A stretch of 48,898 bases of DNA. Source: an uncultured Granulosicoccaceae bacterium (GTDB taxonomy: Bacteria; Pseudomonadota; Gammaproteobacteria; Granulosicoccales; Granulosicoccaceae). Positions 1,996 to 42,145 of this stretch are shown here, one piece after another. A model generated the notes under the pieces. It saw only the letters and a list, made by a program, of their open reading frames with translations. It made no database searches and was not told where the DNA came from. How positions within the stretch are numbered: the stretch's first letter is position 1; the number at the start of each line of letters is the position of its first letter. A program made the translations under genes and the position numbers. The DNA lies in NCBI GenBank assembly GCA_938003855.1, contig CALKXD010000110.1, positions 1 to 48,898 on the forward strand. The letters run 5' to 3'.

Positions 1996-3576
1996 CTAGC
2001 GTGGCTCGGATTGGAGTGCCTTAAACAGTGTGTAGCACATCAGCAGTACCACGACGGTAAACGGTATCCCGGTTGAGACGGCGGCTCCCTGCAGCGCAGA
2101 CAGCCCACCACCAAGCAGTAGCGCGATGGCGACCAGTCCTTCCAGGGTGCACCAGAATACCCGTTGCACGGCAGGTGCATCCATTTTGCCTCCCGCGGTG
2201 ATGGTGTCGATGACCAGTGACCCGCTGTCTGACGAGGTAACAAAAAATATGATAATCAGTACCAGTGATATCGGTGCGATAATGCCATAGAGAGGGAGTT
2301 GATCCAGAAAGCGAAACAGGGAGATCTCGGGTTTGTAGGTGTCGACAACGACGCCGGTGATACCGGTGCCGCTACCTGATTCGATCATGTCTATAGCAGC
2401 ACCGCCGAAGGTTGACATCCAAAGAGCGCAGACCAGAGTCGGGGCAATCAGAACGCAGATAACAAACTCCCTGACGGTTCGACCTTTGGAAATACGCGCG
2501 ATGAACATACCGACAAACGGTGACCACGCGATCCACCACGCCCAGTAAAAGGTGGTCCAGCCATGGAAATAGCTGGTATCTTCACGACCGAACGGGTTCG
2601 ACAGCGGCACCAGTTGTATTACGTACTGCGTCATGACATCGGCGTATCGTGTCAGTGCGACGCCGGCACCGGTAACAAAAAAGACGAAGAAAAACAGCGC
2701 AACCGCCATCACCATATTAATTTCTGAAAGTCTTTTGACGCCCTTGTCCATACCGGCCAGTACCGAGCCCAGGGCAATGATAGTAATGCCGACGATCAGC
2801 AGGACGACTACCGTGTTGGTGGGTTCGATGCCAAATACATCGTTTAAGCCAGCGGCGATTTGCTTCGCGCCCAGGCCTAGAGAGGTAGTCAGGCCAAACA
2901 AGGTGGCGAATACGGCCAGCGTATCAATGACATGGCCGGGCCACCCCCATATTTTGTCACCCAGTATCGGATGGAACGCAGACCTCAGTGTCAATGGCAG
3001 ACCTTTGTTGTAGCAGAATATAGCCAGGCTTAGACCGACGACGGCGTATATTGCCCAGCCGCCAAGCCCCCAGTGGTGCACCGTGCCGACAATACCAATG
3101 TTTGCATTGCCGGGGGATTTGGGATCTATTCCGAGCGGGTTGGCAGCTCCGCCTTCGGCGTAGGTATAGTAGACGGGTTCAAGGACACCAAAAAACAACA
3201 GCCCTATACCGATACCGGCTGCAAACAGCATGGCGATCCATCCGGCGTAGGAGTAGTCGGGTGTGGCGTTTTTACCGCCAATGCGGACCGACCCTAAGGG
3301 GAGGAAAATAAGCACAAGGCAGAACAGCAACATGATGTCGACGGCAATCACTAAAAACCAGTCGAATTCGCGGGTAAGGAAGGGGCGTAGCCAGCCGAAT
3401 AATTCGGCGGAGGCTTCCTGATACATGAGTGATAGCACAACAAATAGTACAATCAAACTGGCTGACACCAAAAAGACCGGGTTGTGGATGTCCAGTCCCA
3501 ACGGCCTTATGTTGTCACTTCCCATCTTATAATTTGTGATTGGCTTTCCATGAGACTCTTCATCTTCTAATGCCAT
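1996..3576 (-). CDS. BCCT-family betaine/carnitine/choline-type transporter
   Basis: A 526-aa inner-membrane carrier of the betaine/choline/carnitine transporter family, expected to take up a quaternary-ammonium or sulfonium osmolyte (glycine betaine, choline, carnitine or DMSP are the family's usual substrates). About twelve hydrophobic segments are visible. The glycine motif reads AAGIGIGLLFFGVLEPVYY, and the tryptophan-rich signature is WTTFYWAWWIAWSPFVGMF in the second half. The glycine stretch has Ile where sodium-coupled BetP has Met (GMGIG), so coupling ion and substrate cannot be read directly. It starts at ATG 3576 behind AAGGTGA with good spacing. The short cytoplasmic tail (ending KALQSEPR) lacks the long charged C-terminal osmosensing helix of BetP. 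It stands alone, with 380 bases of non-coding DNA upstream. Confidence 0.93.
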   Translation of the reverse strand: MALEDEESHGKPITNYKMGSDNIRPLGLDIHNPVFLVSASLIVLFVVLSLMYQEASAELFGWLRPFLTREFDWFLVIAVDIMLLFCLVLIFLPLGSVRIGGKNATPDYSYAGWIAMLFAAGIGIGLLFFGVLEPVYYTYAEGGAANPLGIDPKSPGNANIGIVGTVHHWGLGGWAIYAVVGLSLAIFCYNKGLPLTLRSAFHPILGDKIWGWPGHVIDTLAVFATLFGLTTSLGLGAKQIAAGLNDVFGIEPTNTVVVLLIVGITIIALGSVLAGMDKGVKRLSEINMVMAVALFFFVFFVTGAGVALTRYADVMTQYVIQLVPLSNPFGREDTSYFHGWTTFYWAWWIAWSPFVGMFIARISKGRTVREFVICVLIAPTLVCALWMSTFGGAAIDMIESGSGTGITGVVVDTYKPEISLFRFLDQLPLYGIIAPISLVLIIIFFVTSSDSGSLVIDTITAGGKMDAPAVQRVFWCTLEGLVAIALLLGGGLSALQGAAVSTGIPFTVVVLLMCYTLFKALQSEPR

Positions 3577-3956
3577 TGCAGTTCACCTTAATTAATTATC
3601 AGGATTGTTTTTTTGTCAGTATTAAGGGCAGTGCTCGTCCGCTGTTGATGGAACGACTCAGGTGCCCGTTAAATCGATAACTCTGTACTCCGTTTTTTAG
3701 TGGCTGTGCACTTGTCATTAACACTGTGTCGCGGCACAGGCTCGGGAAATACTATCACACATTCCTGAGGGAGCGCGGTTCGGCCAACGTGCCAATCCGT
3801 TTGTACCGCCACCAACATGCGTTAGTGACACGGCAGGAGCGCAGCACAAGCTAAGTTGCCTGTACGGCGACAGGCTTTTCTATAAACGGATACACCGGCG
3901 CTACAGATTTGCTGGTGATGTAAACGCTTGCATTGATTCTGCGGCGGAGGCGGGTG
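3577..3956. other. Intergenic region with possible plus-strand RNA hairpins
   Basis: This 380-base gap lies between the BCCT start and the end of the DUF2059 gene and contains no convincing ORF. On the plus strand an imperfect hairpin is formed by CTCGGGAA and TTCCTGAG (about 3742-3770). A perfect 6-bp hairpin, GCCTGT(acggcg)ACAGGC at 3858-3875, is followed directly by TTTT. The latter has the shape of a rho-independent terminator, yet no plus-strand gene precedes it. A short unannotated RNA is one explanation; chance is another. The minus strand must hold the BCCT promoter, which I could not pinpoint. Confidence 0.3.
3858..3879 (+). terminator. Terminator-like hairpin without an upstream gene
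   Basis: GCCTGT, a six-base loop, ACAGGC and then TTTT. The U-tract is only on the plus-strand side. The neighbouring genes both lie on the minus strand, so this would terminate an unannotated plus-strand transcript if it is real. Confidence 0.35.
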
Positions 3957-4475
3957 CTACTTTTTTGCATCCTGATGTGCGGTGCGCATTTCAATGGCCA
4001 GTGCCTGTATCTTCGGCATAATAGCTGTCAGTATGGTTTGCGATATTTTTACCGTGTCGGCAATGGCAAGCGGCATGGTCTCGACGGTTTTTCTGCCCAG
4101 ATCGCTTTGGTAGAACGCGATCAGTCCCTGCATTTCTGTATCAGTGAAGTGGCTGGAGTACATCTCAATGATCGGGCCTTTGACTTTTTCCCAGCCCATT
4201 TCTGCTTCGAGCAGCGTATCGAGAGAGCCCAGATACTTTTTCAGTACCGGGTCTTCTTGGTCAGTGATACCAAGTTGTCGCGCCATGTCTGTGTAGAGCG
4301 ATATCACCTGTGCAAAGCCAGCCTCAGTGAGTTGCCGGGCGTCAGTGAGCTCGAGAAATGTTTCGACGGAGGCTGGTGATGCCGGTTGATCTGCTTTAGC
4401 GTTTATGCTGATAGCCAGCAACAGCACGACGGCGAGTTTTGATTTCAATGTAACGGTTCCCGGGAGATTTGTCAT
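3957..4475 (-). CDS. Exported DUF2059-domain protein
   Basis: A 172-aa protein with a signal peptide (hydrophobic LAVVLLLAISINAKA, predicted cleavage after the Ala-Lys-Ala region near residue 28) and a mature helical part. The C-terminal half carries the DUF2059 pattern FTDTEMQGLIAFYQSDLGRK followed by a conserved PLAIAD stretch. Family members are small periplasmic proteins with no agreed function. The first 10 or so residues are longer than usual, so an internal start is possible, but no later Met precedes the signal sequence. It is transcribed alone, divergently from the nitrilase-like gene that starts 121 bases away. Confidence 0.75.
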   Translation of the reverse strand: MTNLPGTVTLKSKLAVVLLLAISINAKADQPASPASVETFLELTDARQLTEAGFAQVISLYTDMARQLGITDQEDPVLKKYLGSLDTLLEAEMGWEKVKGPIIEMYSSHFTDTEMQGLIAFYQSDLGRKTVETMPLAIADTVKISQTILTAIMPKIQALAIEMRTAHQDAKK

Positions 4476-4596
4476 AGGTAGGTGAGTGGTTAGTGAGATG
4501 TCGGTGGTTTATCCATCAGTGCCAGTGCGGTACCGTAACAGGCTCTATTGGTTGTTTTGGTTGGCCGATGCTGCAGCAAGGAAGGTGCATTAATTT

Positions 4597-5331
4597 ATGA
4601 GTACGCTATGGGTTTCAATTTGGAATTGTACAGGTTCTAGCTCGGTGGAATGGCAGAAGGCCGGGTTTAAGGACCGGCTTCGCGGCTTTGAAGAGGCGGT
4701 CGGACTGTCAGTGGCGCGATTTCCCGCCCCCGCTGGAACATCTGACAACCTGCGTGCCGTGTGCGTCGCGCCGGAGTATGCGTTTGCCGGAGTTGATGAT
4801 GGTAATCCTGTGCCGGCTGAGCCGGCGTCATTGGCAGAGATGCTGCTGCTGATGAACACAATGGAGCGTCTTTCACGGGAGAATCCGGGGCTATTGTTAA
4901 TTCCGGGGTCATTTCTGTACACCAGCGATACCGGCTCTGTGCAAAACCGATCTGTCGGATACTTTAATGGTGAGTCGATCATCTATGTTGGAAAACGGCA
5001 TGGTGTTGGTGAGGTTGATGATAACGGAAATAAGCAGTTTGTCGCCGGAAACGGAGGGGCGAATGTCGTTTTGTCAGGTGTCAGTATTTCGCTTCAGATT
5101 TGTCGCGATGCGACCCAGCACAGTGATTTAAATCGTGGGGATATTCAGGTCATTGTGGGTCAGGGTGTTGGCAATGCAGCGGTGGTAGGCGCGGCCCCTG
5201 AACATGCTCGAATCATCGCCGACCCCGGTAATTCGGAGGTGATCGGCTACAACAACACCACTGTAACTACGCATAGTGGATTGCGACAACGAGATATAAT
5301 TGATATCAGCTTCTATGAGATATCGTACTGA
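4597..5331 (+). CDS. Divergent carbon-nitrogen hydrolase (nitrilase superfamily)
   Basis: A 244-aa protein with the three catalytic residues of the nitrilase superfamily in the correct order: Glu60 in VAPEYAF, Lys133 in VGKRHG and Cys169 in LQICRDA. It should therefore hydrolyse a C-N bond in an amide or nitrile. It is divergent: the sequences around Lys and Cys differ from the Nit, amidase and NAD-synthase branches, and I cannot assign a substrate. The start at ATG 4597 has only a weak upstream purine stretch (GGAAGG about 18 bases away), so the start is provisional. There is no signal peptide. It stands alone on the plus strand between two minus-strand exported proteins. Confidence 0.7.
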   Translation: MSTLWVSIWNCTGSSSVEWQKAGFKDRLRGFEEAVGLSVARFPAPAGTSDNLRAVCVAPEYAFAGVDDGNPVPAEPASLAEMLLLMNTMERLSRENPGLLLIPGSFLYTSDTGSVQNRSVGYFNGESIIYVGKRHGVGEVDDNGNKQFVAGNGGANVVLSGVSISLQICRDATQHSDLNRGDIQVIVGQGVGNAAVVGAAPEHARIIADPGNSEVIGYNNTTVTTHSGLRQRDIIDISFYEISY

Positions 5332-36438: not shown

Positions 36439-36808
36439 ATTTGACAGCATTAATGTTATCCCGTTTGTTGATATCATGCTGGTATTACTGGCGATTGTAT
36501 TGACGACGGCCACTTTCGTCAGTAATAGCCAGCTTGACATTACCCTGCCGGTGGCTGATACCGAAGCCAGTGAGGCTCCTGTCGACTCTATAGAGATCGC
36601 CATTGATCGGGAAAATAACCGGTACGTTGACGGGCGTGCGACCGATGCACAGGCGTTAAAGGTTCAGTTGTCTATGCTCTCGGCTGACACGCGGGTAGTA
36701 CTGCGTATAGATGAGTCAGTTGAATTTCTTCAATTTGTCTCTCTGATTGACGTGCTGAAAACGCATTCGCTGGATAACGTTTCTATAGAGACACGGATGA
36801 CACCGTGA
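36431..36808 (+). CDS. exbD: ExbD/TolR-family subunit
   Basis: A 125-aa protein with one N-terminal membrane helix. The conserved proton-path aspartate is in [20 protein letters not shown] (Asp13), followed by the periplasmic domain ([17 protein letters not shown]...). It partners with ExbB. It starts at ATG 36431 inside the exbB reading frame end, and its stop overlaps the GTG start of tonB by four bases. Confidence 0.92.
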
Positions 36809-37758
36809 GGGGGACTGTCACGGGAGTGCTGGTTTCAGCGGTGCTGCATCTGGCGTTGGTAGCGGTTCTGCTCGGCGGCAATAGTCCTGAGTTAACGCAA
36901 CTGCCGTCGGTTGAAGTCATTGAATTGAACCTGTCACTGTTCGACGTTGAGCAGGCTCCACCGGACCATGCGCAGAAAGATGCCGATGTCACCGTGGAAC
37001 CACCGGATGCGGCGATAGAGCCCCTGTCGGAAATACCACTGGATAACCCACCGGAAACACCGGTAGCTCCCGCTGCAGTAATTGCGACAAACGATCTGAC
37101 TGAACCCGAACCCGAACCCGAACCCGAACCCGAACCCGAACCCGAGCCTGAACCCGAGCCTGAGCCTGAACCTGAACCTGAACCTGAACCTGAACCTGAA
37201 CCTGATCCTGAACCTGAACCTGAACCTGAACCGCTGGTATCGGCTGAGGGTGACCCGCGTGCAGTACCGGAGCTGCCCTCCATGCCTCTAGAACAGGAGG
37301 TACTGGAAGAAGTCGAAGGTGCCCATGTTGATGAGGTGACCTTTGTCGAGTCCGTAGTGGAGGCGCACATAGAGCCGGTTAAGCTGACTGAGCACGCGTC
37401 AGTGCCGGTTATAAAGCGCGATCAGGTCGCGCCGGCTGAGGTGTCGGCAGCGGCGTCAACCACCGCAGATTCAGTGGAAGAGCGCAATTATTCAGGTAAG
37501 GTGCGAGCGGCGGTAGTGGCTCAGCGTGTGTATCCGCGTCAGGCCCGTCGTCGTCAAATTACCGGAGAGGTCCGGGTCGGCTTTACCTTGCAGAACAATG
37601 GCCGGCTGATGACAGCAGACATTGTGCGGTCGTCAGGCGTGGCGGTATTGGATGATGCAGCGCTGGCTGCGGTAAGCCGGGTGCGGCAATTTGACGCTTT
37701 TCCGGCGACTGTCACCAGAACCGAATGGGACTTCGAGGTCGTGCTGGTGTTCCGGTGA
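36805..37758 (+). CDS. tonB: TonB energy transducer with an expanded Glu-Pro linker
   Basis: A 317-aa TonB. The N-terminal helix [17 protein letters not shown] contains the conserved Ser-x3-His pair (Ser11, His15). A rigid linker of 22 Glu/Asp-Pro dipeptides comes from a hexanucleotide repeat. The C-terminal domain ([37 protein letters not shown]) contacts the receptor TonB box. It uses a GTG start at 36805 overlapping the exbD stop. Position directly after its receptor and ExbBD indicates a dedicated system. Confidence 0.93.
37102..37233 (+). repeat. 132-bp GAACCY hexanucleotide repeat within tonB
   Basis: 22 consecutive hexamers of the type GAACCC, GAGCCT or GAACCT encode Glu-Pro dipeptides, with one GATCCT (Asp-Pro). 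The first block is pure GAACCC and the later block is GAACCT, showing two separate expansions. Length changes stay in frame if they are in multiples of six, and would vary the reach of TonB across the periplasm. Confidence 0.95.
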
Positions 37759-38523: not shown

Positions 38524-38918
38524 CTGCGCCCCTTTTTCGAGAGTCCGCGGTGGAGCATAACCGGATGTGCCGCCTGATCCAAAGTTTGCGGTGGTTCCCG
38601 GAGCCGGGTGGCGATCGGCTGGATCAAGATGTCCCCGGAGGTGCTGAGGCGCTTGTCCCGAATCGGAGAATCACCACTGTCAGCCGCCCGTTTGATCGGT
38701 CAAATTGCTGGACATCGGCGAATTCGCCAATGTTCCGGTGAGCCGCGGCGTGTCCCTTCCCAGCGTTATCTTTTCGTTCGAGAGTTGTTAGAAAATCGGG
38801 ATAAGTTGGATAAAACGATCCGAAAAACCGCCGGTCTATTTATGCAACACCGACGACGGTGGTGATGTTTCAGCTTTTCACAAATAGATCACTCAAATAG
38901 ACCACTTAGGGGACAACC
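38524..38918. other. Leader region upstream of the bufferin cluster
   Basis: 395 bases between the AAA ATPase start (minus) and the YHS gene start (plus). No credible ORF; an 85-codon plus-strand GTG frame (38608-38865) lacks a ribosome-binding site and any homology I know. The right part contains repeats described separately, and the AGGGGA ribosome-binding site at 38908-38913. Confidence 0.4.
38833..38903. promoter_or_regulatory. Three-copy AAATAGAYC motif upstream of the bufferin genes
   Basis: AAATAGATC (38882-38890) and AAATAGACC (38895-38903) form a direct repeat with a 13-base period. A reversed copy, GGTCTATTT, lies at 38833-38841 and is a perfect inverted repeat of the 38895 copy. 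All three lie within 90 bases of the first start codon. They could be operators for a metal-responsive regulator. Confidence 0.5.
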
Positions 38919-39452
38919 ATGTTTAAAAAATTACTACTCGCATCAGCGTTGACAATGGCCAGCAGCTTATTATACGCCGGCGATCAATATGTTGATGAAT
39001 CCGGCTATGCCGTCAGTGGCTACGATGTCGTGGCTTTTTTCAACCTTGCGCAATCTGCAGTCGGCCAGAAGCAACCGGAAGCGGTACCTGGTAAAAAGGC
39101 GATAACGGCGGAATACAACGGTGCCAAGTGGGCATTTTCTACAGCGGAAAATCGCGATGCCTTTCTGGCAAGCCCGGCTAAATTCGCGCCCCAGTTTGAT
39201 GGCCATTGTGCCTATGGCGTTTCTCAAGGTGGCAAGGTGCCGGCCAACCCGAACTTGTGGCGCATCACCGACAACAAGCTCTACCTCAATATTAATCCAC
39301 CGGTCGTCGGCTTTTTTGAAGAAGACATCCCCGGCCATCTGTCTGCCGCAGCAGGTAACTGGACCAAGCTCGAAGGTGAGGCGGCTTCATCCAAAAGCTG
39401 GAAGGCACTGAAAGCCAACAACGGCACCTACACCATGGAAAGCCCGCAGTAA
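38919..39452 (+). CDS. Exported YHS-domain protein of the bufferin cluster
   Basis: A 177-aa exported protein: signal peptide MFKKLLLASALTMASSLLYA, then the YHS domain with VSGYDVVAFFNLAQSAVG, TAEYNGAKWAFSTAENRDAF and HCAYGVSQGGKVPANPNLWR, ending in a FFEEDIPGHLSAA tail. YHS domains are associated with metal-handling proteins; this periplasmic type is common beside copper or metal genes. AGGGGA lies five bases before ATG 38919. It precedes the bufferin precursor by 90 bases and is probably co-expressed. Role inferred, not known. Confidence 0.85.
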   Translation: MFKKLLLASALTMASSLLYAGDQYVDESGYAVSGYDVVAFFNLAQSAVGQKQPEAVPGKKAITAEYNGAKWAFSTAENRDAFLASPAKFAPQFDGHCAYGVSQGGKVPANPNLWRITDNKLYLNINPPVVGFFEEDIPGHLSAAAGNWTKLEGEAASSKSWKALKANNGTYTMESPQ

Positions 39453-39542
39453 CCCGTTTTTATCTGATGGCGGCCTTTTCGGGTGCCGGAGCATTTTCGC
39501 TGAAACCCGATTCCACTACCAACGACACAAAGGAAATTAATC

Positions 39543-39878
39543 ATGACTGAAAAAACATTGGACACACGCACTCTGTTACTGGCTGGCTCGATCGCGCTGG
39601 CGGTGTCGCAGACAGCAATGTTGCCGAACGCGCAAGCGGGTGCTAAAGAGAAGTGCTACGGCGTTTCACTGGCCGGTCAGAATGACTGTGCCGCCGGACC
39701 GGGAACCACATGTGCAGGGACCTCGGAAGTTGACTACCAGGGCAATGCCTGGACACTGGTACCGAAAGGTGATTGTGCAAAGTTCGGTGTCGAAGAGACA
39801 ATGGCTGAGTATGAACTGCCGGGAGATCGCGTCGGATCACTGGAGAAGCTGGATCGGGATCTTCCGGTAAGCTCGTGA
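39543..39878 (+). CDS. bufA: Bufferin-type RiPP precursor (BufA1, DUF2282)
   Basis: A 111-aa precursor. An N-terminal export signal ([20 protein letters not shown]) is followed by a core with four cysteines: Cys38 and Cys49 in [13 protein letters not shown], Cys57 in [10 protein letters not shown] and Cys78 in KGDCAKF. DUF2282 members of this form are bufferins. Their central cysteines are modified by the DUF692 enzyme to sulfur heterocycles (5-thiooxazoles reported) that bind copper or other metals in the periplasm. It starts at ATG 39543 behind AAGGAAATTA and overlaps the next start by four bases (GTGA), giving strong coupling. Confidence 0.9.
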
Positions 39879-40816
39879 ATAATCAGCGCTCTATAAATGC
39901 GGCACTCGTCAGTCCTGTGACTGACGAGCGTTGTGGTCGGCGGACGATCTCTGGTGGTTCGTCCTGCTTACCCCGACGTGGTGGTGTCTGCCTGAAACCA
40001 CAACACTACGATGAGATCCTGAAGCAGTCGCCGGATGTCGGGTGGTTTGAGGTACATGCCGAGAATTACCTGGGGGCCGGCGGTCCGCCGCTTCGCTACC
40101 TGGAGTTGATCCGCCGTGACTACCCGCTATCCGTTCACGGGGTCGGGATGTCGATCGGCTCAGCCGACGGACTGGATGCCCGGCATCTTCAACGGGTCGC
40201 GGCACTGGTTGATCGGTTCGAGCCCGAATCGTTCAGCGAACATCTGGCCTGGTCTACCCATGACAGTGAATTTTTCAGTGATCTGCTGCCGGTGCCCTAC
40301 AACAAGGCGGTCGAAGATCTGGTATGTGAGCATATAGATCTGGTGCAAACCACGCTGAAGCGGCAGATGCTGCTGGAAAATCCATCAAACTATCTGTCAC
40401 TTGAAAACAGCACGATGTCTGAGACGGCGTTTTTAAACAACATAGTACGGCGCACTGGCTGTGGTCTTTTACTCGATGTGAATAACGTCTACGTCTCTGC
40501 GATCAATTGCGACTATTCGGCAGAGGAGTACATCAATGAGCTGCCTTTGGATTGTGTGGGCGAGATTCATCTTGCGGGTCATGCCACAGACAATAGTGAC
40601 CCGGACGAGTTGCTGCTTATCGATGCCCATGATCGGGAAGTGGCTGATCAGGTATGGTCGTTATTTGAATACACTCTTAGCCACAGTGGGCCGCGTCCTT
40701 CACTGATTGAATGGGATGCATCAATTCCGTCCCTGACCACATTGCTGGCCGAAATGCACAAGGCCGATAGCGCGGCAAACATAGTGGCGGGGGATGCCAA
40801 TGTCATCGCTCGGTGA
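39875..40816 (+). CDS. bufB: Multinuclear non-heme iron oxidase BufB (DUF692, MNIO)
   Basis: A 313-aa enzyme with the DUF692 TIM-barrel blocks: [65 protein letters not shown] and [11 protein letters not shown]. The His, Asp, Glu and Asn in these blocks are the expected ligands of two or three iron ions. It oxidises cysteines of the precursor. It uses a GTG start overlapping bufA by four bases, and its end overlaps bufC by 23. An N-terminal extension of about 35 residues precedes the barrel. Confidence 0.93.
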
Positions 40817-41579
40817 CTTTCAATCTGCAATGCGTGCGTCATTGCACGACAGCGCTGCGGCTTGCCCCGGGCAGGTGGTCGAGCAGGGAACGGACCGTCA
40901 ATCGCGGCGCTTTAATATCTACCGTAATAACCGCATGGTCAGTCTTATAGATAACCTGACGGCGGCGTATCCGACAGTGCATCAGCTGGTGGGTGATGAT
41001 TTTTTTCGGGCAGTGGCCAGGCTCTATATTCAGAAGACTCCGCCGCGCAGCCCGGTGATGGCCGAGTATGGTGGCGACTTTGATCGATTTCTGGATGCGT
41101 TCCCTAATACGCAGGGCGTCCCCTACCTTGCCGACATAGCCACACTGGAGTGGTGCCGGTTGTGCTCGTATCACGCACAGGATGCAGCGGCGGTCAGGGC
41201 TGAGGTGTTGTCTGAAATCTCTCCTGAATCGCTGGAATCAACCTGCTTTTCGATGCACCCGTCGTTGTTTTTAGTTTCGTCGCAATGGCCTGTTGGCAGT
41301 ATCTGGTCGGCGATTGCCAACAATGCTGATCAGCCCGTGGTTGATATGAATCGTGCCGAAGAGGTGATGGTGGTGCGGGCGGAGCATACCGTATCGGTGC
41401 AGATTCTGCCGGCGGATGGTGCTGAGCTGTTAAAACAATTAAGGGATGGCAAACCGCTGCTCGCTGCTGTGGAAATTGTCACCCGACGTTTTCCGGATTT
41501 TGATCCGGGAACACATCTGCAGGGACTGTTTGGTCTCGGTATATTTAATGCAATTTACCAACGAGGAGTAAGCCGGTGA
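40794..41579 (+). CDS. bufC: DUF2063 partner protein (BufC)
   Basis: A 261-aa protein of the HvfC/BufC DNA-binding-domain-like family: SRRFNIYRNNRMVSLIDNLT, AYPTVHQLVGDDFFRAVARL, and YLADIATLEWCRLCSYHAQD. Known members act with the DUF692 enzyme, delivering the precursor to it; despite the family name it is not a regulator. The ATG at 40794 or the second one at 40800 starts it, in the overlap with bufB. Its TGA overlaps the GTG of the DoxX gene by four bases. Confidence 0.92.
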   Translation: MPMSSLGDFQSAMRASLHDSAAACPGQVVEQGTDRQSRRFNIYRNNRMVSLIDNLTAAYPTVHQLVGDDFFRAVARLYIQKTPPRSPVMAEYGGDFDRFLDAFPNTQGVPYLADIATLEWCRLCSYHAQDAAAVRAEVLSEISPESLESTCFSMHPSLFLVSSQWPVGSIWSAIANNADQPVVDMNRAEEVMVVRAEHTVSVQILPADGAELLKQLRDGKPLLAAVEIVTRRFPDFDPGTHLQGLFGLGIFNAIYQRGVSR

Positions 41580-42145
41580 TTACCGCTATACGAAATTTAC
41601 ACGACTCAACTTTTGATTTTATACAGCGGCTGCTGCAGGACTGGTTTCCCGGGTTGCTGGCCCGGTTTGTTTTTGCCGCTGTATTATTTATGTATTACTT
41701 TAATTCGGCTAAAACCAAAGTGGGTGATGGTCTGGCGGGGTTTCTGACTATAGATGATGGTGCCTATATTCAGATACTGCCTACGGTGATGGAGCAGTAC
41801 GGCTATGATGCATCTCAGATTCCGGCGTTTCCGTATCAGCTGATTGTTTATGCGGGTACTTACAGTGAATTTATACTACCAGTGCTGATTGTAGCCGGGT
41901 TGTTTACGCGACTGGCGGCAGCGGGTATGGTGGGGTTTGTGGTTGTTCAGAGCTATGTTGATATCACCGCTCACGGTGCCGATGAAAAAACTATTGGCGC
42001 ATGGTTTGACCGTGTACCCGATGCCGCTATCCTCGATCAGCGTGCTCTGTGGGTGTTTTTATTAACCTACCTGGCAATCTATGGTGCGGGTAAGGTGTCT
42101 CTGGATCATGTACTTGGCGGCAACCGCAACAACCATTACCGCTAG
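41576..42145 (+). CDS. DoxX-family membrane protein of the bufferin cluster
   Basis: A 189-aa membrane protein with about four spans of DoxX type: LLARFVFAAVLFMYYFNSA, LPVLIVAGLFTRLAAAG, VFLLTYLAIYGAGKVSLD. DoxX proteins are frequent at the end of bufferin operons and may help assemble, transport or redox-support the modified peptide. The GTG start at 41576 overlaps bufC by four bases, and GAGGAG lies upstream. Convergent with the PfkB kinase gene. Confidence 0.88.
   Translation: MITAIRNLHDSTFDFIQRLLQDWFPGLLARFVFAAVLFMYYFNSAKTKVGDGLAGFLTIDDGAYIQILPTVMEQYGYDASQIPAFPYQLIVYAGTYSEFILPVLIVAGLFTRLAAAGMVGFVVVQSYVDITAHGADEKTIGAWFDRVPDAAILDQRALWVFLLTYLAIYGAGKVSLDHVLGGNRNNHYR

Follow-up and report, generated by a model that had tools for sequence, protein, structure and literature searches.

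An ordinary type-1 bufferin operon with an additional first gene for a probably secreted, single-cysteine YHS protein

Type-1 bufferin (Buf1) clusters, their chemistry and their copper role have already been published (PMC12452194, PMC13097082). The core cluster, as the main text of PMC12452194 describes it, comprises a peptide precursor, an MNIO protein, a DUF2063 protein and DoxX, with other conserved genes present in an extremely low proportion. The closest described counterpart of the locus studied here is the sigF-linked Buf1 cluster CC3254-CC3257 of Caulobacter, which has a four-Cys precursor, an MNIO maturase, a DUF2063 partner and DoxX in the identical order (PMC3511200, PMC12452194). 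Our locus differs from it in having an extra YHS gene in first position and no adjacent sigma/NrsF pair. The YHS protein leads to a second described system, NF041384, a family listed in a review as selenoproteins with the motif GxU (PMC13188914); a YHS selenoprotein had already appeared in an ocean survey (PMC2398784).

The window analysed is a stretch of 48,898 nt from an uncultured Granulosicoccaceae bacterium, and the features of the locus are given in Table 1. An earlier note on this DNA had recognised a bufferin cluster, and family matches (DUF2282, MNIO_BufB, DUF2063, DoxX) identify it as bufferin-1. It encodes a four-Cys DUF2282 precursor, a BufB-type MNIO (376.7 bits against NF050167 MNIO_BufB, cut-off 310; alignable to the MNIO structures 3BWW, 8HCI and MbnB), a DUF2063 partner and DoxX, whose gene is common, not universal, in bufferin-1 clusters. 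The four BufA cysteines (C38, C49, C57 and C78) are invariant across an alignment of 14 sequences, and the hydrophobic N-terminus, which by eye ends AQA/G, is a putative signal peptide. The gene order first reported (YHS, bufA, bufB, bufC, doxX), the strand and the coordinates were all correct, as were the overlaps at every junction after bufA (4 nt for bufA/bufB, 23 nt for bufB/bufC and 4 nt for bufC/doxX). YHS and bufA are likely to be co-transcribed as well, because the 90-bp gap between them contains no sigma-70-type promoter and no clear terminator (at most a weak terminator-like stem), and a search of the gap for a terminator or attenuator gave nothing unusual (fold z-score 0.08). We conclude that the locus is an ordinary type-1 bufferin operon plus an extra first gene for a single-cysteine, probably secreted YHS protein. 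Upstream of the cluster, at 36805-37758, a gene that follows an ExbD gene encodes a TonB-like protein whose sequence includes a long Pro-Glu repeat.

Table 1. Positions of the features of the YHS-bufferin locus in the window
Feature	Coordinates	Strand	Details
Putative promoter, ECF-like	38812..38841	+	-35 AAAAC 38812-38816, 17-nt spacer, -10 GTCT(ATTT) 38834-38841
Tandem duplication, 13 bp, CAAATAGAYCACT x2	38881..38906	+	predicted mRNA leader
Shine-Dalgarno-like AGGGGA ahead of YHS	38908..38913	+	sequence
YHS, NF041384 (seleno)protein family member, 177 aa	38919..39452	+	NCBIfam match
bufA (bufA1 precursor, DUF2282), 111 aa	39543..39878	+	PF10048, 83.3 bits
bufB (MNIO bufferin maturase), GTG start, 313 aa	39875..40816	+	NF050167
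bufC (DUF2063 RRE-containing partner), 261 aa	40794..41579	+	PF09836, 81.3 bits
doxX, GTG start, 189 aa	41576..42145	+	PF07681, 27.4 bits, cut-off 23.6

The earlier note had considered YHS a non-standard first gene, which proved right, and had proposed a survey of bufferin loci for linked YHS genes. The source genome has one DUF2282 gene and one NF041384 gene, and the two are adjacent. DUF2282 is present in 13 of 48 genomes of the host family; in seven of the 13 a YHS orthologue lies directly upstream, in the same-strand order YHS-bufABC-doxX, and the other six linked proteins are 64-78% identical to that of the window. Two of the 13 carry another YHS paralogue, after which come genes for an OmpR-type regulator and a histidine kinase and then the buf genes; one has a contig that stops just upstream of bufA (YHS was not found in that 80%-complete genome); and three have no YHS link. 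The set of second YHS paralogue, OmpR-type response regulator and histidine kinase was seen before buf genes in L072/L073, and also in L083/L084, there without buf genes.

We then scanned the YHS alignment against 84,980 species genomes, took the best 80 relatives and inspected their 5-kb flanks. A bufA gene was found within the flanks at 31 of these 80 nearest loci, where we estimate the chance expectation to be well under one. YHS, bufA and bufB lie on one strand in 29, most of which also have bufC and doxX where the contig permits, and in other orientations in two more. Many of the same-strand loci are alphaproteobacterial (Kiloniellaceae, Pelagibius, Denitrobaculum, Geminicoccaceae, Oceanibacterium), and at the Roseovarius locus L208 the YHS and buf genes are divergent. 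Family f140 has another form: YHS precedes bufA, sometimes with a thioredoxin gene in between, and at all four of its loci an AraC-type gene is a neighbour. This AraC-type gene (Cupin_6) is divergent from or near the YHS-buf loci (L229, L230, L231, L135). L229 and L135 are the loci with the intervening thioredoxin gene, AhpF/AhpC-like genes lie near one f140 locus, and no bufB or bufC gene was seen from bufA to doxX in L229.

Since the host family and Alphaproteobacteria both show this order repeatedly, the YHS link is no local accident. Though conserved and recurrent, the YHS-headed form is a minority, found in 3 of 97 DUF2282 genomes in a class-wide sample and in 4 of 102 in a phylum-wide one (3-4%). 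Moreover, YHS orthologues stand alone in relatives with no DUF2282 match, so the protein has a bufferin-independent use and is not strictly tied to bufferin. One stand-alone orthologue (G017:C3:58208-58570, L080) contains an in-frame TAA. It is possible, if rather doubtful in our view, that YHS serves in the periplasm as a general stress protein, is in the operon only for co-regulation and makes no contact with the bufferin peptide. The lone orthologues of several DUF2282-free relatives have the same upstream GGAAC-N17-GTCT dyad as the linked genes (see below), and the neighbours of stand-alone YHS genes in Thalassospira and Ruegeria vary, as this explanation would predict; however, linkage has recurred with more than one YHS paralogue and more than one regulator, which exceeds what a single co-regulation event would give.

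The YHS protein scores 119.8 bits against NF041384 (cut-off 70) and 26.2 bits against Pfam YHS (PF04945), under the curated cut-off of 30.3. An alignment of 48 relatives contains a single invariant Cys, Cys97 within DGHCAYG, at the same position as the Sec of GxU in NF041384 homologues. The window protein therefore resembles this family in its above-cut-off score and its Cys at the GxU position, and differs from the Sec-containing homologues in having Cys, not Sec, and in heading a bufferin operon. Classical YHS domains carry a Cys pair, which by eye is not present here, one Cys being left. Also judged by eye, the protein is probably secreted via a Sec signal peptide. Its AlphaFold model is confident (mean pLDDT 92.3); fold searches with the model returned only weak matches, to cilia proteins and toluene monooxygenase hydroxylases, and no resembling structure of known function, and the YHS profile found no useful relative among PDB sequences. 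Thiol chemistry or thiol-metal exchange seems to us more probable than a metal site of the classical YHS kind, because the Pfam score is below its cut-off and the one invariant Cys occupies the Sec position. For the same reasons, the initial suggestion of a YHS domain that supplies the peptide with metal, or stores metal for it, is unsupported. Such a role would agree with the name YHS, with the copper context and with a His96-Cys97 pair conserved in the bufferin-linked subfamily, but the low Pfam score and the missing Cys pair make it highly unlikely.

The earlier note had also described three AAATAGAYC motifs upstream of YHS and proposed that a regulator binds them. Three exact sites do exist within 71 bp (38833, reversed; 38882; 38895), but they do not make up a three-copy motif. 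The reversed copy lies in a stretch that is also conserved in the same-genus relative and looks like the -10 element of an ECF-like promoter that is itself conserved, whereas the two direct copies are the single 13-bp tandem duplication, which is above chance (0 of 300 shuffles) and absent from the nearest, same-genus relative (L065/L145). Comparable sets, with at least three near-copies of some 9-mer, arose in 44 of 60 shuffles of the 395-bp region, in a test made post hoc. Of the three, the reversed copy alone is kept across relatives, within the -10. Despite the three exact copies inside 71 bp, it is thus extremely improbable that they are the operators of a dedicated regulator.

The dyad GGAAC-N17-GTCT, at 8 or more of 9 positions, occurs upstream of YHS at 10 of 13 gammaproteobacterial loci, compared to 0.28 expected from dinucleotide shuffles, with a signal only at spacer 17; this statistic is partly circular, as the dyad was first spotted by eye in part of the tested sequences, and the arguments for a real element are the sharp spacer preference and two independent loci, L147 and L151. 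The window promoter, AAAAC-N17-GTCTATTT, scores 7/9. In genome G098, where YHS and bufA are on separate contigs, GGAAC-N17-GTCA precedes YHS and TGAAC-N17-GTCA, by itself not significant, precedes bufA. Alphaproteobacterial loci do not share the gammaproteobacterial promoter. A different conserved dyad, GT[CA]AC-N15-CGTGAWTTG, was seen upstream of YHS in a subset of the alphaproteobacterial loci (L155, L167, L168, L169, L177, L198), and CTCAC-N15-CGTCATTT upstream of YHS in Thalassospira.

As had been stated from the outset, no sigma/anti-sigma pair lies beside the cluster: tblastn with the eight ECF proteins of the source genome, a search of limited sensitivity, gave no ECF match in the searched flanks, and an NrsF search of that whole genome gave nothing at threshold. 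The locus departs from the sigma-F/NrsF-controlled Buf1 subtype in having no adjacent pair and a GGAAC-N17-GTCT-like promoter in place of the Caulobacter sigma-F site GTAACC-N16-CGAA (PMC3511200). We examined the eight ECF sigma genes, one of which is an RpoE equivalog (L087), and none could be tied to the promoter. The E. coli-type sigma-E (RpoE) promoter is GGAACTT-N15-GTCT-like, and the dyad resembles this consensus in its -35 GGAAC/-10 GTCT spacing. However, the source genome shows no enrichment of GGAACTTN15GTC (4 matches, compared to 19 for the pattern reversed as a control), and no such promoter precedes the RpoE gene itself, so RpoE was not assigned as the regulator.

We lean, with somewhat better than even confidence, towards a YHS-headed bufferin-1 copper-stress operon whose exported YHS protein most likely acts with the mature peptide. 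YHS-bufABC-doxX would be transcribed from AAAAC-N17-GTCTAT by an ECF-type sigma factor whose gene lies at another place in the genome. By analogy with the family, BufB and BufC would act in the cytoplasm, turning Cys residues of the BufA precursor into thiooxazoles by oxidation, and the modified BufA would then be exported and chelate copper in the periplasm. YHS, presumably exported too, would most likely be a periplasmic single-Cys thiol or metal-exchange partner of the mature peptide, perhaps keeping thiooxazole thiols usable or passing on Cu(I). The family matches, the same-strand linkage, the other arrangements, the paired dyads of G098, the promoter statistics, Cys97 at the Sec position, the thioredoxin gene between YHS and bufA at two f140 loci and the nearby AhpF/AhpC-like genes speak for this explanation. 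The minority linkage, the occurrence of YHS without DUF2282, the lack of an informative fold match, the failure to find the responsible sigma factor and the RpoE gene without a matching promoter count against it. The more specific proposal of a dedicated role for the YHS (seleno)protein, as a periplasmic Cys/Sec redox or copper-exchange partner of mature bufferins acting on the thiooxazole peptide after its export, is tentative, and we consider it unlikely.

YHS is not mentioned in the main texts of PMC12452194 and PMC13097082, and our literature search found no paper with both DUF2282 and 'YHS domain-containing'; the pairing of YHS with bufferin in several bacterial lineages is not described in the papers searched. 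A recurrent gene for a probably secreted Cys/Sec-family protein, in several lineages and under different regulators, is a candidate for a step after export. Such a step on the thiooxazole peptide is absent from the bufferin literature searched, as represented by main texts. To our knowledge, the upkeep, loading and unloading of exported bufferins have not been described. The YHS-headed loci also define a bufferin subtype that can be searched for by genome mining.

In a BufB tree with 61 rows, 8 changes are needed to explain the label 'YHS-linked', compared to 20.6 for shuffled labels, and at least five of the eight are forced by starred branches. One clade of 43 rows (99/94) contains 30 of the 31 linked rows. 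As the changes are fewer than for shuffled labels, yet several, the YHS-bufferin link is clustered but has been gained or lost several times. One locus titled Mesoflavibacter (Bacteroidota; L198) has an alphaproteobacterial-looking cassette, and its title is probably a mislabel. The BufA of our locus ends in the C-terminal tail ELPGDRxGSLExLDRDLP. We rejected this tail as a YHS-specific trait, since it follows the BufA clade, which is mostly YHS-linked, and is also present without YHS; as ELPGDRxGSLExLxRDLP (39543-39878; L145-L219) it is the mark of one BufA/BufB clade. At L136, the YHS-linked Buf1 cluster is directly adjoined (3330-5321) by another MNIO/DUF2063 pair, accompanied by a small precursor that is Cys-rich and Buf2-like.
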